Notes: generated by a model from the letters alone, not told the origin. A DNA stretch of 12,852 bases from a bacterium (GCA_040757115.1 JBFLYA010000109.1:1-12852), one strand, 5' to 3'; shown: positions 139 through 12,852, counted from the stretch's first letter. A program made the numbers and translations.

Positions 139-664
139 AAATTTGGGTAACTGTTCAGCCACAGAGGCACAGAGTTCACAGAGAATTAGAGAAATTAGCC
201 ATAAATGGACACGAATTAACCTCTGACATTCGATAAATGTAATGCGAACCTTTGTATGTGTTTAGCGTATTTATGCATTGGATACAAACCTGAAAGGTTT
301 GAATTTTACATAACCGTAGGTAAAACCTACGGAAATGGACATTTACGATGTCTCTCAACCCTGAAAGGGTTGAATTTTAAACGAGGGATAAAATTCGACC
401 CTTTCAGGGTCTCAGAGTGCATGTATGTGTTTCTTCCGTAGATTGCATCTACGGTTATGTGAAGTTTGACGCTTTCAGCGTCGGAAAAAAATATCGTCAC
501 GCTAAACACATACGAACCTTTAGGTTTGCTTTCCTGCTTGCCAGAAGCGAGGCTAAAGTCTCGCACTACAAATCTTTTTATTATTCGTGTTCATTCGTGG
601 TTATATATTCCCTCTGTGTTCTCTGTGACTCTGTGGTTATATCCCGGAACGGTTACAAATTTGG
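139..664. mobile_element. GTAAC-type MITE copy 1 with 8-bp duplication, carrying a nested element
   Basis: The element proper is 147-656 (510 bp). It starts GTAACTGTTC and ends GAACGGTTAC, and is flanked by the perfect 8-bp direct repeat AAATTTGG at 139-146 and 657-664. Behind the tips the arms remain inverted repeats made of CACAGAG-like words (about 157-185 against 611-636). Removing the nested 260-bp element and its duplication leaves 242 bp, matching the 240-bp copy at 6763-7002, which is closely similar throughout. There is no transposase gene. GTAA tips and 8-bp duplications match what is known of IS66, so IS66-type mobilisation is the likely but unproven mechanism. The right duplication supplies part of the Shine-Dalgarno sequence of the gene at 676. 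Confidence 0.93.
246..521. mobile_element. Nested 260-bp palindromic MITE inside copy 1
   Basis: The element is 254-513. It has perfect 15-bp terminal inverted repeats, GTATGTGTTTAGCGT and its complement, and an 8-bp direct duplication GAACCTTT at 246-253 and 514-521. The paralogous copy at 6763-7002 has one uninterrupted GAACCTTT at the corresponding place (about 6863-6870), which is a direct empty-site control. The interior is a near full-length foldback built of smaller palindromes: CCTGAAAGG units near 289, 361 and 399, and CCGTAGGT/ACCTACGG-like stems near 314-332 and 436-454. There is no coding capacity. The tips differ from the GTAAC family, so a different transposase may have moved it. 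Confidence 0.9.
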
Positions 665-668
665 AGAA
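663..668 (+). promoter_or_regulatory. Ribosome binding site partly made of a target-site duplication
   Basis: GGAGAA lies nine bases before the ATG at 676. Its first two bases are the last two of the duplicated AAATTTGG, so the insertion landed inside the leader and the duplication rebuilt the binding site next to the gene. This site decides the start at 676 rather than any of the in-frame upstream codons, which lie within the MITE. Confidence 0.75.
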
Positions 669-675
669 TAAAAAA

Positions 676-1875
676 ATGGGTAATGAAGAGATAGAAAAAC
701 ACCTGGAATTAGGTGAAGATTCTAAGTGGGAGTTTAAGTCAGAAATTTCACATCCCGATGACCTATCTTCTGAAATTGTCGCTATGGCAAACTCTGAAGG
801 CGGAACTATCCTACTTGGTGTCTCTGATAAGGGAGAACCAACTGGTAACCTTGATGATAAGGAAACAATGAATACAGTGGTTGTCTCAATAGAAAATATC
901 TCTCGGAATAATATAGAACCCGCTTTATTTCTTACCTGGGAAAAGATAAAGATAAATGGTCACACAATCCTGGCGATTAAAATTCCCAAAGGTCCAGATA
1001 GACCATACCGCACCAACAAAGGAGTCTATTATCTCCGTGTGGGGACAAGCAAAAAGATTATTAGTCGGGGAGAGTTAGCAAAGCTCTTTCAATCTACCGG
1101 CTTATTTTATCCTGATGAATCCCCGGTTTTAAATACGGACATCGCTGATATTGATAGTGATTATCTGAACAAAGCCTGGCCCGAATTAGTAAGCATACCT
1201 TTATCTAAAGCCAGACTCAAAGACTGTGGGATAATAAGCACTGATGAATCTGCTTTGACAATTGGTGGGCTTATCTGCTATGGCAAAGAACCACAAAAAA
1301 GGCTACCTTATGCCAGGATTACTGCCATCAGATTCCCGGAAGGAGATATTGAAGGTGGACATAGGTATCTTGAGAGGTTAGAGATTGAAGGCAGGATTGA
1401 AGACCAGGCAAAGGAAGCAACTATGTTTTTGACTCGTCATCTTGGAATAGTAGAAGAAATTTTGACATTTGCTTCGGAAACTCAAACCAGCCCTCCCAAA
1501 CTCTTATTATCAGCCATTCAGGAAGGAATAATCAATGCCCTGGTTCACCGCGATTACACCCTTCCTTCCCAAATTAGACTCTTTGTCTTTGATGACAGGA
1601 TAGAAATATTAAGTCCTGGCAGGTTGTTGAATACGGTAAATCTTTCAGAACTGAAACTTGGCTGTCATGCGGTTAGAAACCGTATCATCTTTGCCCATTG
1701 TCTGAGGCTGAAATTGGTTTATAATGTGGGATTGGGTATTCCAACAATGTTCAGGCTAACACTCAGGGCAGGTCTTCCTGAACCAGAAATAAGTCTTGTC
1801 GGCTCAGAATTTAGACTTGTCTTCAGGAGAAACGCTCATGTCCACAGCGCGGACACAAACGACGATGAAAATTAA
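676..1875 (+). CDS. AlbA_2 (Schlafen-type) / RecG-like ATP-binding domain regulator
   Basis: The protein has 399 residues from the ATG at 676, chosen for its GGAGAA site; the reading frame extends upstream to 466, but only through mobile-element DNA. Residues about 15-135 form an AlbA_2/Schlafen putative nucleic-acid-binding domain, with the typical EIVAMANSEGGTILLGVSD stretch (33-51) and YYLRVGTS (118-125). Residues about 270-390 resemble the HATPase_c_4 domain found in such proteins, including INALVHRDY (286-294), the RNRIIFAH stretch near 334 and a final RLVFRR. Families with this layout are annotated as putative transcriptional regulators or RecG-like ATP-binding proteins; their biochemical role is not settled. 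The last 13 or so residues after RLVFRR are encoded by a dispersed repeat (1822 onward) and are probably not ancestral. It precedes the NACHT gene on the same strand but is separated by about 390 bp of repeats. Confidence 0.85.
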   Translation: MGNEEIEKHLELGEDSKWEFKSEISHPDDLSSEIVAMANSEGGTILLGVSDKGEPTGNLDDKETMNTVVVSIENISRNNIEPALFLTWEKIKINGHTILAIKIPKGPDRPYRTNKGVYYLRVGTSKKIISRGELAKLFQSTGLFYPDESPVLNTDIADIDSDYLNKAWPELVSIPLSKARLKDCGIISTDESALTIGGLICYGKEPQKRLPYARITAIRFPEGDIEGGHRYLERLEIEGRIEDQAKEATMFLTRHLGIVEEILTFASETQTSPPKLLLSAIQEGIINALVHRDYTLPSQIRLFVFDDRIEILSPGRLLNTVNLSELKLGCHAVRNRIIFAHCLRLKLVYNVGLGIPTMFRLTLRAGLPEPEISLVGSEFRLVFRRNAHVHSADTNDDEN

Positions 1876-1880
1876 TGGGA
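1822..1880 (+). repeat. TTCAGGAGAAACG..CATG module, copy A (overlaps a gene end)
   Basis: TTCAGGAGAAACGCTCATG at 1822-1840 is followed by a small hairpin (GTCC, seven-base loop, GGAC) and then CACAAACGACGATGAAAAT. The same order recurs at 12734-12796: TTCAGGAGAAACGGACATG, a hairpin (GAGCC/GGCTC), then CACAAAGGGCAATGAAAAT. A third copy of the first part is at 2181-2200. The hairpin stems differ in sequence but keep their position. This copy encodes the C-terminal tail and stop region of the AlbA_2 gene. Confidence 0.75.
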
Positions 1881-2170
1881 CGCAGATTTACAGGATTTAC
1901 AAGATTTTAAAGAAAAGCCACTAATGCTCTGTCGCCATTCAAGTGATTGATTGGCCGTTGTCCCCCGCTGGCGGGGGTAGGGGGTGGATTCTTCTATTTC
2001 AGATTTCATATTCCACCCCCTTAATCCCCCGCCAGCGGGGAACATCAATTGAGTAGCGACAGAGCACTAAGGCACTATAAAAACATCAAGAAACTTTAAG
2101 GAAATAACTATAGAAATACAATAATAAAAAATTAATTTTAATCCTGTTCATCTGCGAAAATCTGCGTCCA
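1876..2170. repeat. TGGGACGCAGA foldback repeat interrupted by a second element
   Basis: The left arm begins TGGGACGCAGATTTACAGGA at 1876, and the right arm ends with the matching inverted sequence AAATCTGCGTCCA at 2170. A shorter relative, 78 bp and uninterrupted, lies at 12649-12726. The space between the arms here is enlarged by the 142-bp foldback at 1925-2066. No target duplication is evident at the outer ends. There is no coding capacity on either strand beyond short shadows. Confidence 0.75.
1921..2070. mobile_element. 142-bp GC-rich foldback element with CTAA duplication
   Basis: The element is 1925-2066, with perfect 11-bp terminal inverted repeats TGCTCTGTCGC / GCGACAGAGCA flanked by CTAA at 1921-1924 and 2067-2070. 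The inner stem is strong: CCCCGCTGGCGGGG at about 1963-1976 pairs with CCCCGCCAGCGGGG near 2027-2040. Inside that, GGGGGTGGA pairs with TCCACCCCC. The four-base duplication is short enough to need other copies for confirmation; a TA duplication with slightly longer ends fits almost as well. It is far more GC-rich than its surroundings. It could fold into a long hairpin in any transcript crossing it and may separate the two flanking genes transcriptionally. Confidence 0.8.
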
Positions 2171-2180
2171 ATTTTACATT

Positions 2181-2250
2181 TTCAGGGGAAACGGGCATGA
2201 CCTGCGGCTACCAGCCTTTCCGAGTCCCGAACCCCGAGTCCCGAGTCCCG
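2181..2250 (+). repeat. TTCAGG-GAAACGG-CATGA module, copy B, with CCCGAGT tandem repeat
   Basis: TTCAGGGGAAACGGGCATGA at 2181-2200 is followed by a GGCT/AGCC hairpin, and then by three to four imperfect CCCGAGTC units (2219-2250). Sequence of the same kind ends this window (CCCGAGTCCC, 12843-12852), again downstream of a TTCAGG module. The ATG at 2197 is in frame with the NACHT gene and has purines upstream, so the repeat could give that protein a 24-residue N-terminal extension. I prefer the ATG at 2269. Confidence 0.65.
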
Positions 2251-2256
2251 ATTTTC

Positions 2257-2262
2257 AGGAGA
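2257..2262 (+). promoter_or_regulatory. Ribosome binding site deciding the NACHT gene start
   Basis: AGGAGA stands six bases before the ATG at 2269. It sits in the string ATTTTCAGGAGAA (2251-2263), which repeats the ATTTTCAGGGGAA at 2178-2190 almost exactly, so the binding site itself resembles the start of the dispersed TTCAGG module. Confidence 0.7.
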
Positions 2263-2268
2263 ACAATA

Positions 2269-5200
2269 ATGGAATGGTATGAAAGATTAGATGGATGGAA
2301 TAAGATAAATGAAGGCGACCTGGTAACCATTGCCTTATTTAAGTTTGATATGGCAAAATCTACCCAGCTTGGAAAACAACTTGGTGCAGAAGAAAACAGA
2401 GATTGCCTTAAGAAATATCACGACCTGGTAGAATATATTCTAACCGGGTTTAATATCGCTCCCCAGCCATTTGAATTTCAAAAGGATGGGGCAACGGTCT
2501 ATTTCCTTGGGGAAAATGCCGTCTCTGAGGCAGTTCGTGCCGGGAAAAAACTTCTTTCTGAGATAAGAAGGACTCTGGAATACGAGGTTCACATCAGAAT
2601 TGGCATTGGTGTTGACGATGTGTATTTCAAGAAAAGACTGGGAGAGATTTCATCACATCAGTTTGACCTTGGAGGACATTCAGAAAAGGTTTGCCCCATC
2701 GATTCCCTTGTCTTAACCGAGGAGGCATATTTAGACCTTGATAGATTAGATAAAGGATTGGCAAGTGAGTTTGGCTTTCTTGGAACTACACTTGAGGATA
2801 AGTCACCTTTATTTGTCTATCCCAAAACTCGCCAGATAAACAAACCAGCTGAATTTTTTAAGCCAGAGGATGACCCATACTGCATTAAGGCACGGCTTAT
2901 CAATTACTATAATACCCCATCATTTTGTCAATTTAGATTTGTGGGCATCCGTCAATTTGAAAAGGTAGGGTTAGCCCTGGAGATTCGTAAGGCTTATGTC
3001 CTTCTTAAAGCCCGTGCCTGGAAGGAAAGGGAAGAGATAGATGAAAGTAGAAAGATGAAAGATGAAAGAGAAAGGGAAGAAAGGGAAAGAAGACCTTTTC
3101 TAAGCGAAAAGACCTATCGCGAGACACCTATTCCCCTTGACGGACTTTTAAAGAAAGACAAAAATATTATTCTGCTTGGTGACCCCGGTTCTGGAAAGAC
3201 AACCTTTCTTCGCTGGCTTAGCTTGATGTTTATAGATGGGGTAAGGAATATAAAAAGGCATCTGGGAATTGAGGAAAGCCTTATTCCCCTCTTTATCTCT
3301 GTAGGTAGATTCTTTAATTTGCGTTCAGAAAATCCAAACCTTGGATTACTTAATCTCCTTTCCCTCTATTTTTGTCCCTATGGCTGTGAGGGATTGGAAA
3401 AGATGCTTGAACCTCGATTAAATGATGGGCAGGTTATCTTTCTCTTTGATGGTCTGGATGAGCTCCCATCTGCCAATGAAAGAGAGATAGCAAGAAATCT
3501 GGTTGAACTCTATACCAGCCAATATTCAAAGAATAGATTCATCATCACCAGTAGAATTGTTGGCTATCCCGGGCTTTCTATCCCTAATTCCAGAGAGTAT
3601 TGTCTGGAAGGACTTGATGAAGATGAGGCAACAAAATTGGCTTTTGCCTTTTACTTTAGTTTAGCCATTAAGGATGAAGAAAAAAAACCCCGGGCAAAGG
3701 AACTGGCAGAAGAGAAAAGCCATATCCTTATCTCATCATTAAAGGAGCGGGAAAACCTCCTTGCCTTTCTCCAGAACCCACTCTTACTTACCCTGTCTGC
3801 CATCTGCCACACAAATCTTGGCAAACTTCCCAAATATAGGGTTCGGCTATATGAGGTCGCCACCCAGACATTGGTTGATGCCTGGGCAAATGCAAGAAGA
3901 CCTGAGAGTATAACAGAAAGAGAACACATTGACTATGAGGCAGAAGGACTGCGTGTCTTACCAGCCATTGCTCTCTGGATGCATCAGGAAAAACCAGCGG
4001 GATTGGTCAGAGAGGATGAACTTATAGAAAAGATTAAAGCCCTGCTTGGAAAAGGGGAATTTGATGCCAAAGAATTTATGAGGAGACTTGAAGCCGCAGG
4101 AAGCCTTTTAATAAATAGAGGAGAAAACCAATATGGCTTTATCCACCAAACATTCCAGGAGTATTTAGTGGCAAAACAAATGGTAAAATCAGTAAAAGAT
4201 TCCTGGGAAGATTACATCTCTGAATTTCTTTACAACCCCCGCTATGAAGAAATATGGAGACTAATTGCAGGTGAGATTGGCATAATTGAAGGAAGCGGTG
4301 AGAAGGCAAGCCTTTATATAAAAAAGATTTACGAAGATACTGATGACATTAATGCACAAATCCTTAAGAAGAACCTTTTGCTCTCTGCCAAAGCCCTTTC
4401 AGATACCGTCTCTTATGATGAGGAGCTGAATAATGGGATTGTATCTGACCTCTTTAATGCCTGCATTAAGGATGAACCACCACCACCCAGAGAACAACTC
4501 TTCCTTGCCATCCGACAATTAAAAGGAAGGGAAGAAGGTGAAAGGCTTTGTGGCCTTCTGGTAGATAGACTGAAGGATTTTGATAGGGATGTTCGTTCTG
4601 CCGCAGCAGAGGCAATAGGGAATCTGGGGGATAAAAGTGCCCTCCCACAACTTATTCCTTTGTTGAGTGATGCTGTTGGGTATGTTCGTTCTGCCTCAGC
4701 AGAGGCAATAGGGATGTTGGGGGATAAAAGTGCCCTCCCACAACTTATTCCTTTGTTGAGTGATGCTAATTGGTTTGTTCGTTCTGCCGCAGTAGAGGCG
4801 ATAGGGAAGTTGGGGGATAAAAGTGCCCTCCCACAACTTATTCCTTTGTTGAGTGATGCTGAGTGGGATGTTGTTCGTTCTGCCGCAGCCGAGGCAATAG
4901 GGAAGTTGGGGGATAAAAGTGTCCTCCCAAAACTTATTCCTTTGTTGAATGATGCTGATGGGTATGTTTGTTCTGCCGCAGCAAGGGCAATAGGGGAGTT
5001 GGGTGATAAAAGTGTCCTCCCAAAACTTATTCTTTTGTTGAAAGATGCTAAGTGGGATGTTCGTTCTGCCGCAGCAAGGGCAATAGGGAATGTGCGGGAT
5101 AAAAGTGTCCTCCCACAACTTATTCCTTTGTTGAGTGATGCTGATGGGTATGTTCGTTCTGCCGCAGCAAGGGCAATAGGGAAGTTAGGTGATAAAAGTG

Positions 5201-5571
5201 CCCTCCCACAACTTATTCCTTTGTTGAGTGATGATGAGTGGTATGTTCGTTCTGCCGCAGCAGAGGCAATAGGGAAGTTAGGGGATAAAAGTGCCCTCCC
5301 ACAACTTATTCCTTTGTTGAGTGATGCTGATGGGTATGTTTGTTCTGCCGCAGCAAGGGCAATAGGGGAGTTGGGTGATAAAAGTGTCCTCCCAAAACTT
5401 ATTCTTTTGTTGAAAGATGCTAAGTGGGATGTTCGTTCTGCCGCAGCAAGGGCAATAGGGAAGTTGGGTGATAAAAGTGCCCTCCCACAACTTATTCCTT
5501 TGTTGAATGATGCTAAGTGGGATGTTCGTTCTGCCGCAGCAGAGGCAATCTGGAATCTCTCGCTGGTCTAA
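2269..5571 (+). CDS. Cyclase-like / NACHT NTPase / HEAT-repeat STAND protein
   Basis: The protein has 1100 residues. Residues about 15-190 resemble a class III nucleotidyl cyclase domain: FKFDMAKST gives a first metal-type Asp27, QKDGATVYF a second (Asp73), and RIGIGVDD (110-117) the following strand. The region that normally carries the catalytic Asn and Arg is shortened (FDLGGHSEKVC, 132-142), so activity is doubtful. A charged linker spans about 250-276. The NACHT core has Walker A GDPGSGKTT (304-312), Walker B FLFDGLDELP (391-400) and a sensor-like RFIITSR (423-429); FIHQTFQEYLVAK near 624-636 is typical of NACHT proteins. Residues 774-1100 are ten full 31-residue HEAT-like (PBS-lyase-type) repeats plus part of an eleventh. 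STAND proteins of this plan sense a ligand through the repeats and activate the N-terminal domain; several bacterial NACHT proteins protect against phage. The ligand and output here are unknown. An alternative start at 2197 would add 24 repeat-encoded residues. Confidence 0.88.
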   Translation: MEWYERLDGWNKINEGDLVTIALFKFDMAKSTQLGKQLGAEENRDCLKKYHDLVEYILTGFNIAPQPFEFQKDGATVYFLGENAVSEAVRAGKKLLSEIRRTLEYEVHIRIGIGVDDVYFKKRLGEISSHQFDLGGHSEKVCPIDSLVLTEEAYLDLDRLDKGLASEFGFLGTTLEDKSPLFVYPKTRQINKPAEFFKPEDDPYCIKARLINYYNTPSFCQFRFVGIRQFEKVGLALEIRKAYVLLKARAWKEREEIDESRKMKDEREREERERRPFLSEKTYRETPIPLDGLLKKDKNIILLGDPGSGKTTFLRWLSLMFIDGVRNIKRHLGIEESLIPLFISVGRFFNLRSENPNLGLLNLLSLYFCPYGCEGLEKMLEPRLNDGQVIFLFDGLDELPSANEREIARNLVELYTSQYSKNRFIITSRIVGYPGLSIPNSREYCLEGLDEDEATKLAFAFYFSLAIKDEEKKPRAKELAEEKSHILISSLKERENLLAFLQNPLLLTLSAICHTNLGKLPKYRVRLYEVATQTLVDAWANARRPESITEREHIDYEAEGLRVLPAIALWMHQEKPAGLVREDELIEKIKALLGKGEFDAKEFMRRLEAAGSLLINRGENQYGFIHQTFQEYLVAKQMVKSVKDSWEDYISEFLYNPRYEEIWRLIAGEIGIIEGSGEKASLYIKKIYEDTDDINAQILKKNLLLSAKALSDTVSYDEELNNGIVSDLFNACIKDEPPPPREQLFLAIRQLKGREEGERLCGLLVDRLKDFDRDVRSAAAEAIGNLGDKSALPQLIPLLSDAVGYVRSASAEAIGMLGDKSALPQLIPLLSDANWFVRSAAVEAIGKLGDKSALPQLIPLLSDAEWDVVRSAAAEAIGKLGDKSVLPKLIPLLNDADGYVCSAAARAIGELGDKSVLPKLILLLKDAKWDVRSAAARAIGNVRDKSVLPQLIPLLSDADGYVRSAAARAIGKLGDKSALPQLIPLLSDDEWYVRSAAAEAIGKLGDKSALPQLIPLLSDADGYVCSAAARAIGELGDKSVLPKLILLLKDAKWDVRSAAARAIGKLGDKSALPQLIPLLNDAKWDVRSAAAEAIWNLSLV
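4588..5571 (+). repeat. 93-bp in-frame tandem repeat array encoding HEAT repeats
   Basis: Ten full copies and a partial one of a 93-bp unit, each encoding 31 residues of the pattern VRSAAAEAIGKLGDKSALPQ followed by LIPLLSD and a variable tail. Copies are nearly identical in DNA as well as protein. Differences concentrate in the residues after LLSDA (VGY, NWF, EWD, DGY, KWD) and in R/C after V. One copy, near 4860-4875, carries an extra GTT codon (VVRS). The 140 bp at 4951-5090 recur without change at 5323-5462, exactly 372 bp (four units) later. Confidence 0.93.
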
Positions 5572-5802
5572 TTCCAGGTTCATAAGAAGCGGAAATTTTC
5601 CTTATAGGGCTATTAACTGGAAGTCTACATAGGATAATACCCATAAATAAGGCATGAGAATAATCGTTCCGTTAGGAACATAATATCGGTAGGAATAGAT
5701 AGACAAACCAATCAGTTCCGTAGATGGTAGAAAATTTATGGAAAACCATTTACCAATATATTGTCCCTATGGGACATTAATGAAGGATGAGGTAGAATTT
5801 TC
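5572..5802. repeat. Gene-free stretch with short palindromes
   Basis: I see no gene here. The stretch holds short dyads separated by AT-rich spacers: GTTCCGTTAGGAAC at about 5669-5682 and GTCCCTATGGGAC at 5763-5775. The string AATATCGGTAGGAATAGATA near 5685-5704 resembles AATATCGGGAGGAAATAGATA at 63-83. The pattern of a small palindrome followed by CATAA and a GGTAGG-like word is shared with the interior of the nested element at 254-513, so this may be a decayed relative. No inverted-repeat ends or target duplication are visible. Confidence 0.5.
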
Positions 5803-6056
5803 GTAACCGTTCAGATAGTAATTCACCGCAGAGACGCAGAGGAACAGAGAAGAAATTGAAATAAATCAGACAACAGAAAAGATTATTGAGGCAATTATTG
5901 TCCTACATAGGACCTCAAAACCAAATTTGTTAATCAATCATGATATGTCGGTTTTCAAAAGCTTGCTCTGATGAAAATCCGTGATGGAATGAGGCATGTG
6001 GTAAATAGTTTTTAATTTTTTCTCTGCGTCTCTGTGTCTCTGCGGTGAACGGTTAC
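5803..6056. mobile_element. GTAAC-type MITE copy 2, without a visible duplication
   Basis: The ends are GTAACCGTTC at 5803-5812 and GAACGGTTAC at 6047-6056. Inside them, inverted arms rich in CACCGCAGAGACGCAGAG (left, about 5824-5840) match TCTGCGTCTCTGTG-like sequence on the right (about 6022-6044). The left arm has about twelve extra bases (AGATAGTAATTC) between the tip and the CACCGCAG word. The flanking octamers GAATTTTC and TGGTCAAC do not match, unlike the other four copies. The core, about 5850-6005, is unlike the other copies and holds a small GTCCTACATAGGAC palindrome (about 5900-5913). It lies 37 bp upstream of the cyclophilin gene. Confidence 0.75.
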
Positions 6057-6093
6057 TGGTCAACAATACATATTATACGAGGAGGTAAAAGGT

Positions 6094-6780
6094 ATGAAAA
6101 AAATAATTGTATGTGGATTGCTTGTTCTGAGTTTATCAGGATGCATGGGAACAAAAGAAAAACCTGTTACGACTGAAGAAATTACTATGGCAGAATCAGG
6201 AATTAGTTCGTCAGGTAAATTGGAGTTTTCTAACGAAGAAGAGGTAAAAGGGTTGGAAATGAAGTCTGAAGAAAGTAAGAAGGAAATGGAAGAAATAGGG
6301 GTTATTGAGACTAAGTTTGGTAAAATGACTATCAGATTTTTCCCGCAAGATGCACCAGGTCATGTAGAAAACTTTAAAAAATTGGCTAAAGGAAGGTTTT
6401 ACAATGAAACAACATTTCATCGGGTCATACCAGGGTTTATGATTCAAGGCGGAGACCCAAATAGTAAAGATGATGACCGAACTAATGATGGTATGGGTGG
6501 ACCAGGTTATACAATTAAGGCAGAATTTAATAGCCTATCTCACAAAAGAGGTATCGTTTCTATGGCACGCAGTGCTCATCCGGATAGTGCCGGGTCTCAA
6601 TTCTTTATCTGTGTTGCCCCAGCGACTTTCTTAGATGGACAATATACAGTATTTGGAGAGGTAATAAATGGGATGGATGTTGCGGATAAGATTGTCAATG
6701 TCCCACGGGATAGCAATGATAACCCAATAGAAAAAATACCAATGACCGTATCGATTATCAGTGTAAGCGTTCAGCCATAG
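6094..6780 (+). CDS. Cyclophilin-type peptidyl-prolyl isomerase, lipoprotein
   Basis: The protein has 228 residues and a clear GGAGG site at 6081-6085. The N-terminus is a lipoprotein signal (charged MKK, hydrophobic core, lipobox LSGC with Cys17), so the mature enzyme should be membrane-anchored outside the cytoplasm. A Glu/Lys-rich linker (about 20-68) leads to the cyclophilin fold at about 70-225. This fold holds FHRVIPGFMIQGGDP (109-122, with the catalytic Arg110), SMARSAHPDSAGSQFF (156-171) and LDGQYTVFGEV (180-190, Tyr where cyclosporin-sensitive forms have Trp). It catalyses cis-trans isomerisation of Xaa-Pro bonds in exported proteins. The last five codons (VSVQP) and the stop lie in the MITE that starts at 6763; without it the frame would read ...SIISK and stop directly before the next gene's ATG. 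Confidence 0.92.
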   Translation: MKKIIVCGLLVLSLSGCMGTKEKPVTTEEITMAESGISSSGKLEFSNEEEVKGLEMKSEESKKEMEEIGVIETKFGKMTIRFFPQDAPGHVENFKKLAKGRFYNETTFHRVIPGFMIQGGDPNSKDDDRTNDGMGGPGYTIKAEFNSLSHKRGIVSMARSAHPDSAGSQFFICVAPATFLDGQYTVFGEVINGMDVADKIVNVPRDSNDNPIEKIPMTVSIISVSVQP

Positions 6781-7010
6781 AGGCACAGAGTTCACAGAGA
6801 ATTAAGGAAATTAGCCATAAATGGACACGAATTAACCTCTGACATCCCATAAATGTAGTACGAACCTTTAGGTTCGTCTTTTGGCTTGCCACAAGCGAAG
6901 CTAACGCCTCGCACTACAAATCTTTTTGTATTTGTGTTCATTCGTGGTTATATATTTCCTCTGTGTTCTCTGTGACTCTGTGGCTATATCCTGAACGGTT
7001 ACTTATCAGT
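6755..7010. mobile_element. GTAAC-type MITE copy 3 with duplication TTATCAGT
   Basis: The element is 6763-7002 (240 bp), from GTAAGCGTTC to GAACGGTTAC, with the perfect octamer TTATCAGT on both sides (6755-6762, 7003-7010). This is the uninterrupted form of copy 1: the CACAGAG arms, the CCATAAATGGACACGAATTA stretch and the CTCGCACTACAAATCTTTTT stretch all match. It keeps the single GAACCTTT into which the nested element inserted in copy 1. It lies across the 3' end of the cyclophilin gene and fills the whole space to the amidohydrolase start. Confidence 0.95.
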
Positions 7011-7016
7011 AAATAA

Positions 7017-8258
7017 ATGACTTGTGAATTAATTCTTAAAGCAAATTATATATTACCTATATTAAAGCCTTTAATTGAAGATGGAGCTATTCATATTAAA
7101 GATGGCACAATAATTGAATGTGCCAAATTTTCTAAAATCTCAAGTGCAGATAAAAAGATTGTAGAATTAAAGAATGCCTGTTTATTGCCTGGTTTTGTCA
7201 ATGCGCATAGTCATCTTGAATTAACCAGTCTAAAAGGTAAAGTTCCGTATAAAGGGTCATTTATTCAATGGATTCGGGATATAATTGAAGCAAAAAATGT
7301 CTGGAATGAAAAGAATTACATAAGTTCTTTAAAGTTAAGTATTAAACAATTAGTCGAAAGTGGCACAACAACAATTGTAGATATTACGGCAAGTGGATTA
7401 TCACCACAAATTTTATTAACCTCTAATTTACGAGGTAGAATTTATAAAGAGATAACTGGCTTTAAATTTGATTCAGTAAGTCAAATTATTACAGACTTAA
7501 AAAAATATCTATCAAATTTATCCCCAACAAATTTAATTGACTTTGGTGTAGCTCCACATGCACCTTATTCAGTTAGTCCAAAGTTACTTACAGAATTACT
7601 TAGTCTATCCAGAAATAATAACTTACCTCTGTCTATTCATCTATCTGAGGATAAAACAGAACTAAAATTTCTTATGAAAGGTAAAGGTGAAATAATAAAT
7701 TTATTAAAAGAATTAAATGTTTGGGAAGATGAATGGAAGCAACCAGGACTGTCTTCAGTAAAATATTTAGATTCCATAGGGATATTGAATTCAAATATTA
7801 TTGCTGTGCATCTAAATTGCATTAATGAAGAAGATTTAGAGATTTTAAAAAAAAGAAGGGTAGGAGTAGTTCATTGTCCTAAAAGTCATAAATTTTTTCA
7901 ACGAGATGACTTCCCTATTCAAAAATTAATAGATAAAGGGATTATAATTGCTTTAGGAACAGATTCATTAGCCAGTAATGATTCATTAAATATGTTAGAG
8001 GAAATAAAGGAATTAAAAAGAAGATATAAAACCCTTTCTGCCGAAGGAATTCTTGAATTAGCTACGATAAATGGAGCAAAGATATTGGGACTTATGGATA
8101 AGATTGGAACTTTGCAACCAGGTAAAAAAGCGGATATAATTGCCTTGAGACTGCCTGAAGATTTAACTAAAGAGAAATTATATGAATTTATAGTAACAAA
8201 TGCAAAAAAGGTTATATTAAATATGGTAGATGGGAACTTCTTAAGATTTGAAGTTTAG
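7017..8258 (+). CDS. Amidohydrolase, aminofutalosine / methylthioadenosine deaminase group
   Basis: The 413-residue protein has an N-terminal beta-sandwich strand (to about 58) followed by the TIM-barrel metal site. Visible ligands are His64 and His66 in VNAHSHLE, His181 (APHAPYSVSP), His208 with Glu211 (SIHLSED), His265 (IIAVHLN) and Asp316 (ALGTDSLAS). The C-terminal AKILGLMDKIGTLQPGKKADIIAL closes the fold. The HSHLELTSLKG...SFIQW pattern is nearer to aminodeoxyfutalosine deaminases (menaquinone by the futalosine route) than to MtaD-type methylthioadenosine/S-adenosylhomocysteine deaminases, but substrate cannot be fixed from motifs. No Shine-Dalgarno is seen before the ATG. Before the MITE at 6763 inserted, the cyclophilin stop TAA abutted this ATG, so it was probably read by translational coupling. 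It is very AT-rich. Confidence 0.85.
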   Translation: MTCELILKANYILPILKPLIEDGAIHIKDGTIIECAKFSKISSADKKIVELKNACLLPGFVNAHSHLELTSLKGKVPYKGSFIQWIRDIIEAKNVWNEKNYISSLKLSIKQLVESGTTTIVDITASGLSPQILLTSNLRGRIYKEITGFKFDSVSQIITDLKKYLSNLSPTNLIDFGVAPHAPYSVSPKLLTELLSLSRNNNLPLSIHLSEDKTELKFLMKGKGEIINLLKELNVWEDEWKQPGLSSVKYLDSIGILNSNIIAVHLNCINEEDLEILKKRRVGVVHCPKSHKFFQRDDFPIQKLIDKGIIIALGTDSLASNDSLNMLEEIKELKRRYKTLSAEGILELATINGAKILGLMDKIGTLQPGKKADIIALRLPEDLTKEKLYEFIVTNAKKVILNMVDGNFLRFEV

Positions 8259-8299
8259 AAGTTATAAAGTTCTTAAGTTAAAAATTGGTAACTGGTAAT

Positions 8300-8336
8300 T
8301 AGTGATTGGTAACTAATTATCAGTTACTAATTACTA
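8300..8336 (+). promoter_or_regulatory. Inverted repeat just upstream of the cooC ribosome binding site
   Basis: TAGTGATTGGTAACT (8300-8314) and AGTTACTAATTACTA (8322-8336) form a 15-bp stem with two mismatches and a seven-base loop. The right arm touches the AAAGG at 8336-8340 that serves as the weak ribosome binding site of the gene at 8349. The arms also contain direct GGTAACT/GGTAATT units (8287-8314), so simple repeat expansion is an alternative explanation. Confidence 0.5.
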
Positions 8337-8348
8337 AAGGTCCGTAAA

Positions 8349-9167
8349 ATGAAAATAGCCATAAGTGGTAAAGGAGGCGTTGGCAAAACAACATTAAGTG
8401 TTTTGTTAGCCTCATTGTATGTTGAAGAAGGAAAAAAAACCTTATTAGTCGATGCAGACCCGGATAGTAATTTAGCCGCTTGTCTTGGACTTTCACAAGA
8501 AATAGTCAATCAAATTACGCCTATTTCTAAAATGAAAGCACTTATTGAAGAACGCACCGGGGCAAAATTAGACCAGACAGGAACTTTATTTAAAATAAAC
8601 CCCCAGGTAAATGATATTCCTGATAGATTTAGTCTAAATTTTAATGGGATTAAACTTTTAATTATGGGGACTGTTGAAAAAGGTAAATCTGGTTGTATGT
8701 GTCCGGCTAATACCCTTCTTAAAAATTTAATGAAAGAACTCTTAGTTAAAAAAGATGAGGTAGTTATTTTAGACATGGAGGCAGGAATTGAACATTTAGG
8801 CAGAGCGACGGCAGGTAATGTTGATGTATTTTTAGTCGTAGTAGAACCTGGACTTAGAAGTATTCACACCGCTAAAAATATTCAAAGATTAGCCAGAGAT
8901 ATTGGAATTAAAAATGTCCTGATTGTGAGCAATAAGGTAAGAAATGAACAGGATTACAGTATCATCACCCAGGAGGTAAAACCTCTTGAAATTATTGGTT
9001 CTATTTCATATCATGAAGAATTAATCAAAGCCGACCTCATGGGAAAAGGTATATTACCTATCCCAAATCCAAAAATTAAAGAAGAGATAGAAAATATAAA
9101 GTATATGATAAAAAGAAGTGAAGAAAGAGGAGAAGAGAGTAACGGTAAAGATGGGATACAATTTTAG
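8349..9167 (+). CDS. cooC: CooC-type ATPase for carbon monoxide dehydrogenase nickel insertion
   Basis: The 272-residue protein is a MinD/SIMIBI-class P-loop ATPase. It shows the deviant Walker A GKGGVGKT (7-14), DADPDSNLAACLG (35-47), the Cys116-Met-Cys118 motif that holds nickel or zinc at the CooC dimer interface, and the family signature LDMEAGIEHLGRATAG (141-156). The role known for the family is ATP-driven nickel loading of CO dehydrogenase or acetyl-CoA synthase; no such subunit is in this window, so a role in either (CooC or AcsF-like) is open. The ribosome site AAAGG is weak. The stop TAG is half from the target duplication and half from the first base of the MITE at 9167. Without the MITE the protein would end three residues later at a TGA now at 9580-9582, overlapping the gspE 3' end. 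Confidence 0.88.
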   Translation: MKIAISGKGGVGKTTLSVLLASLYVEEGKKTLLVDADPDSNLAACLGLSQEIVNQITPISKMKALIEERTGAKLDQTGTLFKINPQVNDIPDRFSLNFNGIKLLIMGTVEKGKSGCMCPANTLLKNLMKELLVKKDEVVILDMEAGIEHLGRATAGNVDVFLVVVEPGLRSIHTAKNIQRLARDIGIKNVLIVSNKVRNEQDYSIITQEVKPLEIIGSISYHEELIKADLMGKGILPIPNPKIKEEIENIKYMIKRSEERGEESNGKDGIQF

Positions 9168-9572
9168 TAGCTGTTCACCGCACAGACACAGAGACGCAGA
9201 GAAAAAAATTAAAATCTATTCACCAGAGACAGAAATTTCCTTTTTTTGTGTGCCTTTCGGGTCTTTCGTTGTTTATTAATCTTCTAATACTTACTTTTAA
9301 CTAACTGTTTTTAAGCCTTTTTAAACACCGAAAAACGCGATAAACACGAAAAAAAAGTAACCGTTCACCGCAGAGACACAGAGACGCAGAGAAAAAATTA
9401 AAATTTATTGATAACTATTCAGCCACAGATGGACACAGATGAAACACTGATTTTATTTTTTATCCGTGCTAATCCGTGTTAATCAGTGGCTGAATAGTTA
9501 CTTTATTTCTATGTTTTCTCTGTTCCTCTGCGTCTCTGCGGTAAAGGATTACTTGAACGGTTACCAATTTTA
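9159..9572. mobile_element. GTAAC-type MITE copy 4, complex, with duplication CAATTTTA
   Basis: The element is 9167-9564 (398 bp), from GTAGCTGTTC to GAACGGTTAC, flanked by the perfect octamer CAATTTTA at 9159-9166 and 9565-9572. It holds further structure. A second left-type end, GTAACCGTTCACCGCAGAG, starts at 9357. A decayed right-type end, CTCTGCGGTAAAGGATTAC, finishes at 9552. A 91-bp foldback (9411-9501) has 16-base ends (A/G)TAACTATTCAGCCAC flanked by TTTATT on each side. An imperfect inverted repeat joins about 9238-9275 and 9325-9356. This fills the space between the convergent cooC and gspE genes. No coding frame of note is present. Confidence 0.9.
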
Positions 9573-11078
9573 TTCTTCTTGAACGACTCTGAGAACCTCC
9601 TCTACGGTAGTTACTCCTCTTTGCACCTTTTGAAAACCATCTTCTTGCATAGTTTTCATTCCTGATTTAATAGCAAGTTCTTTTATTTTATGAGCATTAG
9701 TCTTTTGGAGTATTAATTCTTGTAATTCATCATTTATCAGCAGTAATTCAAATATACCTATTCTTCCTTTAAAGGCAGAGTAATTGCACTTTTCACAACC
9801 ACGTCCTTTAAGAAGTGTTTTTGAATGAAACTCTTTGACTAATTCTGGAGCAGGGAGATATTCTTCCCTGCACTCCGGGCAAATAAGTCGAACAAGCCGC
9901 TGGGCTAATATTCCAATTACCGACGAGGAAATCAGAAAATCCTCAACTCCCATATCATGGAGTCGGGTAATAGCACTTGCGGCATCATTGGTATGTAATG
10001 TTGAGAAAACTAAATGGCCCGTCAAAGCCGCCTGAACAGCTACCTCAGCCGTCTCTAAATCCCTTATCTCACCAACCATCATAATATCCGGGTCTTGCCT
10101 TAACATTGACCGCAATCCTTGAGCAAACCCAAAGTTTATTTTAGGTTTTACCTGCAATTGATTTATTCGCTTTATTTGATACTCAACCGGGTCTTCAATG
10201 GTAATAATTTTTTTCTCAGTTGAATTAATGCGGTTTAATGTCGCATACAGGGTTGTGGTTTTACCTGAACCAGTAGGACCTGTAACTAAAATAATTCCAT
10301 TTGGTCTATGGATTAATTTTTTAAATTGTTCAAGTATTGTTTCCTCAAATCCTAAGTCTTCTAATTCCAATAAAATACTTTCTTTTTCAAGTATTCTAAG
10401 AACTAAACTTTCGCCATAGAGTGTAGGTAATGTTGCGACACGAATATCAATTTGTTTGCCACCAACCTTAAGTTGTATTCGACCGTCTTGTGGTAATCTT
10501 CGTTCTGCAATGTTCATCTCAGCCATAAGTTTGATTCTTGAGATAATAGCCGGATAAAGCCATTTAGGTGGAGGAGCGGTATCATACAACACACCATCTA
10601 TTCTATATCTCACCACCATTTCATCTTCAAAACATTCAATATGAATATCACTGGCTCTTTTTTTAATTGCCTCCATGATGATTAAGTTGACTAATTTAAT
10701 CACCGGTGCCTCATGAGCCAAACTCTCTAAATCAGCAGTTGTTTCTTTATCCTGGTCACTAATTTTCTTCTCTTTAATCCCGGAGATAATATCTTCAACG
10801 GTCTGTGCACCTGTTCCATAATATTTTTGTAATGCCTGGTCTATCTCATCTTGTGAACTAAACACTACTTCTATTTTACATCCTAATAAAAGTCCAATAT
10901 CATCAAGGATATGAATTTCTAATGGGTCTGCGGTAGCAATAGTCAAAGTGTTATTATCCATTTTAATCGGGATTAGTCGATACCTATTGACAAATTTTGC
11001 CGGTAATTTTTTAATTACTTCTTGAGGAATCTCAAGACTTAAAATATTTACTATTGGAATTTCATGTGTCAAATTCAT
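9570..11078 (-). CDS. gspE: GspE/PilB-family secretion ATPase
   Basis: The 502-residue hexameric cytoplasmic ATPase powers type II secretion or a related pilus. An N-terminal MshEN/GspE-N domain covers about 1-90. The motor core holds DIHIE (144-148), Walker A GPTGSGKTTT (267-276), the Asp box TIEDPVEY (293-300), Walker B DPDIMMVGEIRD (329-340) and the His box HLVFSTLHTND (355-365). The zinc tetracysteine is Cys400/403 and Cys428/431. The length suits GspE better than the longer PilB, but without neighbouring secretion genes either system is possible. The start at 11078 is supported by AGAAGG six bases upstream. The 3' end is convergent with cooC. The promoter is a full-consensus box at 11435-11406, with a 272-bp MITE between it and the gene. 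Confidence 0.92.
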   Translation of the reverse strand: MNLTHEIPIVNILSLEIPQEVIKKLPAKFVNRYRLIPIKMDNNTLTIATADPLEIHILDDIGLLLGCKIEVVFSSQDEIDQALQKYYGTGAQTVEDIISGIKEKKISDQDKETTADLESLAHEAPVIKLVNLIIMEAIKKRASDIHIECFEDEMVVRYRIDGVLYDTAPPPKWLYPAIISRIKLMAEMNIAERRLPQDGRIQLKVGGKQIDIRVATLPTLYGESLVLRILEKESILLELEDLGFEETILEQFKKLIHRPNGIILVTGPTGSGKTTTLYATLNRINSTEKKIITIEDPVEYQIKRINQLQVKPKINFGFAQGLRSMLRQDPDIMMVGEIRDLETAEVAVQAALTGHLVFSTLHTNDAASAITRLHDMGVEDFLISSSVIGILAQRLVRLICPECREEYLPAPELVKEFHSKTLLKGRGCEKCNYSAFKGRIGIFELLLINDELQELILQKTNAHKIKELAIKSGMKTMQEDGFQKVQRGVTTVEEVLRVVQEE

Positions 11079-11092
11079 TCTAAACCTTCTTT

Positions 11093-11380
11093 AAAAAATT
11101 GTAAGCGTTCAGGCTACACATCCGGTGTGTAAAAAGGGGGATAAAGAGATAAGGGAGATGTGGAGATTATAAATTAAAAGATTATGGTTATGAAGTTGGT
11201 ATGGAAGCCTGCTCCTGACAGGCTCAGGAATTAGGTCAAGATGGTTCTAACTTCATAACCACTAAACCAAACCAGCCTCCTAACCCTAACCCTTTCACCA
11301 AGAACTCCTAAATATATCCTCTTATCTCCATAATCTCCATATCTCCTTTTCTTACACTACCTGAACGCTTACAAAAAATT
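11093..11380. mobile_element. GTAAG-type MITE copy 5 in the gspE leader, duplication AAAAAATT
   Basis: The element is 11101-11372 (272 bp). Its 13-base ends GTAAGCGTTCAGG / CCTGAACGCTTAC differ only at the innermost base pairings, and the perfect octamer AAAAAATT flanks it (11093-11100, 11373-11380). Arms rich in GGAGAT/ATCTCC pair over about 11137-11170 and 11325-11357. A central sub-hairpin has 12-base arms GGTTATGAAGTT (11186-11197) and AACTTCATAACC (11249-11260), and inside it AGCCTG/CAGGCT (11206-11224). The interior is unrelated to copies 1-4; only the tips are shared. It begins 23 bp upstream of the gspE ATG. Confidence 0.93.
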
Positions 11381-11435: not shown

Positions 11436-11478
11436 CCACCTTTTGCAGAAAATTAAAAGTAGTAACAAGAGGTGAATA

Positions 11479-12733: not shown

Positions 12734-12852
12734 TTCAGGAGAAACGGACATGAGCCAAGGCTCACAAAGGGCAATGAAAATGGGAGAAGGACAACCCCCT
12801 AACCCCCTTTATTAAGGGGGAATTGCTGAGAGTTTCTTTCTTCCCGAGTCCC
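12734..12852 (+). repeat. TTCAGGAGAAACGG-CATGA module, copy C, with CCCCCTT hairpin
   Basis: TTCAGGAGAAACGGACATGA (12734-12753), a GAGCC/GGCTC hairpin and CACAAAGGGCAATGAAAAT repeat the layout at 1822-1880. It is followed by a 7-bp hairpin CCCCCTT-TATT-AAGGGGG (12803-12820) and CCCGAGTCCC at the edge. AGGAG eight bases before the ATG at 12750 looks like a translation start, but the frame closes after 21 codons, so I do not call a gene. No other gene is seen from 12688 to the end. Confidence 0.7.

Follow-up and report, generated by a model that had tools for sequence, protein, structure and literature searches.

Prokaryotic miniature inverted-repeat transposable elements (MITEs) have been reviewed in a text that makes no mention of IS66, and that gives 711 copies for ERIC in Photorhabdus luminescens (PMC10969869). 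Within the IS66 family, ISDge4 was placed in the ISBst12 group by a 2026 paper; its ends are GTAACTGCTCAGCA and GTGACTACTCAGCA, and when its transposition was observed, it left an 8-bp repeat (PMC12898284). No earlier description of IS66-derived (ISBst12-group) MITEs was found in the literature searched, which excluded most subscription papers. Here we describe five elements in a stretch of DNA from an uncultured bacterium (genome G000, 4,317,218 bases in 462 contigs). The whole of this stretch, contig C109:1-12852, is referred to as the window. A preliminary description had proposed that the five are transposase-free elements mobilised by IS66. This proposal is backed by exact target duplications, by full-length elements with the same tips that carry tnpC, and by empty sites in a related genome, and it can be refined: the five features are very probably non-autonomous MITEs that depend for their movement on a single-gene IS66-family transposase (TnpC) of the ISBst12 type, acting in trans.

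The coordinates first given for the five elements proved exact throughout, and elements 1, 3, 4 and 5 are indeed flanked by four different exact octamers. The elements, their target duplications and one unoccupied target are as follows.

147-656, no strand: element 1, subfamily A, with GCCACAGAGGCACAGAG arms and a second MITE nested inside
139-146 (left) and 657-664 (right): target duplication of element 1, AAATTTGG
254-513, 260 bp: MITE nested within element 1, with tips GTATGTGTTTAGCG and CGCTAAACACATAC
246-253 and 514-521: 8-bp duplication of the nested MITE, GAACCTTT
5803-6056: element 2, subfamily B, with CCGCAGAGACGCAGAG arms and without a target duplication
6763-7002: element 3, subfamily A; the same site is occupied in the same-genus genome G005
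6755-6762 (left) and 7003-7010 (right): target duplication of element 3, TTATCAGT
9167-9564: element 4, a composite of the outer left tip GTAGCTGTTC and a B-type unit at 9357-9564
about 9411-9501: GTAACTATTC-type foldback in the B-type unit of element 4, the boundaries of unit and foldback being read from the sequence
9159-9166 (left) and 9565-9572 (right): target duplication of element 4, CAATTTTA, present as a single copy in the G005 empty site
11101-11372: element 5, whose interior is a singleton in a 1.02-Mb sample of the genome
11093-11100 (left) and 11373-11380 (right): target duplication of element 5, AAAAAATT; the G005 empty site has a single AAAAGATT
11466-11473: unoccupied target CAAGAGGT, which in G005 holds an A-type element with CAAGAGGT duplicated

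The window elements are 240-510 bp long and contain no transposase gene, with only short mechanical open reading frames (ORFs) detected in an ORF check. The flanks of element 2 are unequal (GAATTTTC and TGGTCAAC) and show no octamer repeat; a 97% identical copy at G005:C3:37703-37956 (L287:17703-17956) has an octamer of its own, ACTCTAAT. The tips are shared, as had been claimed for the motif GTAA(C/G)CGTTC. However, the consensus is better written GTAASYGTTCA, and the left tip of element 4 is a one-base variant of it.

This consensus is abundant across the genome, with 433 + 452 = 885 exact tips, compared with 8 + 5 = 13 occurrences of a control in which the same pattern is read backwards. 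Octamers were assessed in 1.02 Mb of G000, within which every forward tip whose next tip was a reverse one no more than 3 kb away was taken without further selection, giving 62 strict pairs. Exact 8-bp flanking repeats are present in 24 of these; the only other exact repeats are three 7-mers and one 4-mer, with none at 5, 6 or 9-12 bp. When right flanks are dealt to other pairs, exact octamers arise at a level of 0.041%; the preliminary description had called the chance of four independent exact octamers negligible. With one tip mismatch allowed, the sample yields 39 elements with exact octamers, such that the search for further copies suggested by the preliminary description finds many. Only 3 of these 39 lie inside ORFs, as compared with 71% of random sites, and the octamers are 75% A+T versus 63% in the sampled DNA. 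MITE families cover approximately 4.2% of this DNA, at about 205 tips per Mb. Our collection includes 19 genomes of the phylum; G005 has 858 tips and G011 has 652, and the counts fall as low as background in others. When the tip pattern was relaxed slightly, octamer repeats were recovered in G005 (6), G011 (16), G002 (2) and G003 (2), and the only other repeat was one 6-mer.

A comparison with G005, whose gene flanks are 97-98% identical to those of G000, reveals that some copies have moved recently. The sites of elements 4 and 5 are empty in G005, the first with one copy of CAATTTTA and the second with one copy of AAAAGATT, one base off AAAAAATT. Reciprocally, G005 carries an A-type element between two copies of CAAGAGGT, exactly at the position of the single copy in the window. 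Element 3 occupies one and the same site in the two genomes and has its TTATCAGT octamers in each. Thus, some insertions are older than the split between G000 and G005 and others are younger, in both lineages.

These lineage-specific empty and filled sites, which were observed directly, bear on the idea that the features do not transpose but are palindromic repeats between genes, hairpins of the REP/ERIC or terminator kind, that were spread by recombination and have octamers only incidentally. Every element forms a strong foldback when folded, with element 3 reaching a minimum free energy of -54.5 versus -21.6 +/- 2.8 for shuffled sequences, and the elements are mostly intergenic, both as such repeats would be. 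However, exact octamers occur far above chance, nested insertions have octamers of their own, and the clean empty sites in G005 refute static repeats as a full explanation, leaving this alternative extremely improbable. The elements may nonetheless serve as terminators or RNA hairpins after insertion.

In full-length elements that end in these tips, the gene present is that of an IS66 transposase, which supports the earlier reading of the window elements as IS66-mobilised. GTAA ends with 8-bp duplications had been named as characteristic of this family. The Pfam IS66 DDE domain has five matches in G000. One of them is on contig C277, inside an element of 1563 bp (L036:3061-4623) that has the same tips at both ends and tnpC (136.5 bits) as its sole gene, interrupted by two in-frame stops (TAG and TAA). 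In the same-order genome G004, a 1505-bp element with the same tips (L195:4970-6474) contains an intact tnpC ORF of 468 codons, whose product matches PF03050 with 135 bits (cut-off 23.1) and NF033517 transpos_IS66 with 270 bits (cut-off 180). The ends of both elements are inverted repeats from GTAA with 0-1 mismatches over 14 bp, and tnpC stands alone between them. TnpB had no match in G000, and no separate search was aimed at TnpA. A full IS66 with the same terminal repeats was therefore found, as the preliminary description had called for, although it is of the single-gene tnpC type (ISBst12 group) and not a tnpA/B/C element. Among the plasmid matches listed for the G004 enzyme, even the best fall below 30% identity.

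Comparators from other sources have closely similar ends. Three plasmid tnpC-only IS66 elements combine perfect 14-bp ends with exact octamers: ISAva2-type ends, GTAAGGATTCAGG, are flanked by CGATAAAG twice, or by CTGAATTC, and a further plasmid element has the ends GTAACTACTTAGG and the octamer TTTAATTT. A tnpC-only plasmid element of Kovacikia has the ends GTAACTGTTCAG and GTAAGCGTTCAG, with the octamer CCAAAATG present twice. Because these elements and ISDge4 agree, the tips and the duplication length of the window elements are, judged by their sequence, those of ISBst12-type IS66 elements. We infer that TnpC is the enzyme and acts in trans. It would recognise two inverted ends of 12-16 bp, GTAASYGTTCA(GG), and insert the DNA between them with an 8-bp stagger at AT-rich, mostly intergenic sites. 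Filling in of the stagger would then produce the 8-bp target duplication.

It is also conceivable that a different, unrelated transposase with similar ends, likewise producing 8-bp duplications, moves the elements, and that the likeness of their tips to IS66 is a coincidence. Duplications of 8 bp are made by several insertion sequence (IS) families besides IS66, and intact IS66 copies with the same tips are missing from the genomes richest in MITEs. Such an enzyme is nonetheless very unlikely. Two lineages of tnpC, the G000 and G004 enzymes being 40% identical, have the same tips within the phylum, and independent tnpC-only elements elsewhere, with which ISDge4 agrees, have nearly the same tips together with exact octamers. 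Moreover, chance does not account for the 13-16-bp identity seen at each end of the IS66 element in G000.

Several observations weigh against movement by TnpC. Exact octamers are absent from 38 of the 62 strict pairs, owing to decay or recombination, or because adjacent tips of different elements were paired. The flanks of the full-length copies are unequal (TTATTTTT/AAAAACTT and GATTTTGA/GGAAAATT), as old or recombined copies can be. The only same-tip tnpC found in G000 carries the two stops, none was found in G005 despite its 858 tips, and G011, with 652 tips, has one small fragment; the current source of the enzyme is therefore outside these assemblies. The ratio of MITEs to detectable masters is hundreds to at most one, and collapsed repeats of short-read assemblies could conceal tnpC copies.

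The interiors were originally considered unrelated foldbacks. This is true of several families in the 1.02-Mb sample: family A (GCCACAGAGG arms) has 7 members, family B (CCGCAGAGAC arms) comprises two groups of 10 and 5, and family C, 237 bp in length, has 6 members whose full-length copies are up to 100% identical. There are also several singletons, element 5 among them. It is not true of elements 1 and 3, which belong to one subfamily, since element 1 without its nested 260-bp insertion aligns with element 3 over 219 identical positions, 19 mismatches and 6 gap positions. Nor is it true of elements 2 and 4, which have arms in common at 80-96% identity. Both kinships had been overlooked because of the nested insertion and the composite element.

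Simple internal deletion of one IS66 element is another possible origin for MITEs with common tips, and such a derivative of a tnpC-only element exists in G001 (L205:2071-2649, 579 bp). That element illustrates the ordinary route to a MITE, unlike the window elements. In BLAST comparisons of octamer-bearing elements with the G000 IS66 element, 12-16 tip bases match and nothing beyond them, several unrelated interiors exist, and the commonest interior is found elsewhere without tips. It is thus very unlikely that the elements are internal-deletion derivatives.

The anatomy of the elements is consistent with mobilisation by TnpC in which the tips alone are recognised and interiors are, for this reason, presumably free to vary. 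Recognition of this kind predicts that nested and composite elements should bear octamers, and examples outside the window agree with the prediction, without constituting proof. A nested pair (L090:4223-4976 with 4646-4923 inside) and a composite whose left end is A-type and whose right end is C-type (L066:11027-11572) have both kept their octamers. At the level of sequence anatomy, the claim that only the tips matter for movement is therefore supported, with only the tips in common, varied interiors and octamers on nested and composite elements. The second tip type, GTATGTGTTTAGCG, also occurs in G015 and G014, close to fragments of the IS66 DDE domain (L196:3081, L201:1635 and L204:2006). 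In B-type elements (window positions 5803-5830 and 9520-9564, and many others), one end has a good outer tip followed by an apparent decayed inner tip (GTAACCGTTCAGATAGTAATTCACCGC; GTAATCCTTTACCGC), an arrangement that suggests tip renewal.

The commonest MITE interior is a CRCAGAGR foldback with an 8-bp period. We compared 300 arms from 199 viral-collection contigs, gathered by motif scans, with 91 arms from G000. GTAA is present at the IS66 tip position in 3 of the 300 viral-collection arms versus 57 of the 91 in G000, whereas TTCA adjoins 101 of the 300. None of the three scored arms in the Verrucomicrobia genome G036 has an IS66 tip, no exact match to the combined IS66 tip and CAGAG motif was found in the viral contigs, and no constant target duplication was found for free-standing CAGAG foldbacks. 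Our literature search found no papers that print the CAGAG motif. A single universal bacterial unit made of the tip and the CAGAG interior is ruled out by the difference between 3/300 and 57/91 and by the lack of an exact combined match. Free-standing CRCAGAGR foldbacks without IS66 tips are common in unrelated contigs (L308-L506, L250, L251 and L259), often after TTCA. For several of them (L494, L497 and L356), the palindrome carries on into the flanking DNA, as in GCCTAACC...GGTTAGGC, and the arms there look as if they had been extended into otherwise unique DNA.

Because the arms occur widely without tips or octamers, the elements consist of two separable modules, tips and foldback body, and IS66 tips seem to have become attached to foldbacks of a distinct class. 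The TTCA common to both modules would offer a simple route of capture by IS66. Tentatively, it is possible that CRCAGAGR foldbacks are a separate, widespread repeat class that became IS66 substrates in this phylum, where TTCA beside CCRCAGAG would have provided the inner tip (GTAANNGTTCA) and about seven further bases would have been enough. In that case, the phylum would present static palindromes in the course of capture as transposons, and double tips at one end only, such as GTAACCGTTCAGATAGTAATTCACCGC in element 2, would be traces of tip renewal.

Other features of the window lie between or beyond the MITEs. An ORF of 1124 amino acids (2197-5571) combines a NACHT domain with HEAT repeats, about ten in number and nearly identical to one another, and an AlbA_2/Schlafen-type ORF (664-1875) adjoins it. 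The NACHT/HEAT stretch has no G005 counterpart among the matches listed. Near the right end, a repeat of about 34-42 bp (12783-12824) is found in near-identical form at many places in G006 and G007.

The kind of element described here is an ordinary one, namely MITEs of a known IS family whose parent group, ISBst12, is also known. What is unusual is the abundance, the variety of interiors that share one tip and the almost complete lack of the enzyme. In number, the elements of this genome rank with the largest repeat families described from bacteria. Its many unrelated interiors amount to a natural experiment on what the poorly characterised IS66-type transposase needs for recognition. Hundreds of copies, some recently moved, alongside almost no intact transposase gene with the same tips raise the question of where the enzyme comes from.

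Tn3-derived inverted-repeat miniature elements (TIMEs; PMC4133298) give rise to non-autonomous transposons of mosaic structure. Composite element 4 and L066:11027-11572 resemble such mosaics in principle; TIMEs belong to the Tn3 family and not to IS66. The MITE of Cardinium cOegib is likewise a lineage-specific element that spread from a parental IS, but it derives from IS982, and its parent is intact in the genome, whereas no intact parent was found here (PMC9769881). The ISBst12 group (ISDge4 and ISAva2) shares with the window elements ends that begin with GTAA and contain a TTCAG/CTCAG core, as well as the 8-bp duplication; its members have a single tnpC-type transposase, whereas the window elements are gene-less. 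Like the reviewed MITEs Correia, ERIC, Chunjie, Nezha and MITEAba12, the window family is short, gene-less and mostly intergenic, with terminal inverted repeats and target duplications. With its 885 exact tips in 4.3 Mb, it stands near the top of the range of copy numbers given in the review (PMC10969869), and it differs in having several unrelated interiors behind one set of tips.

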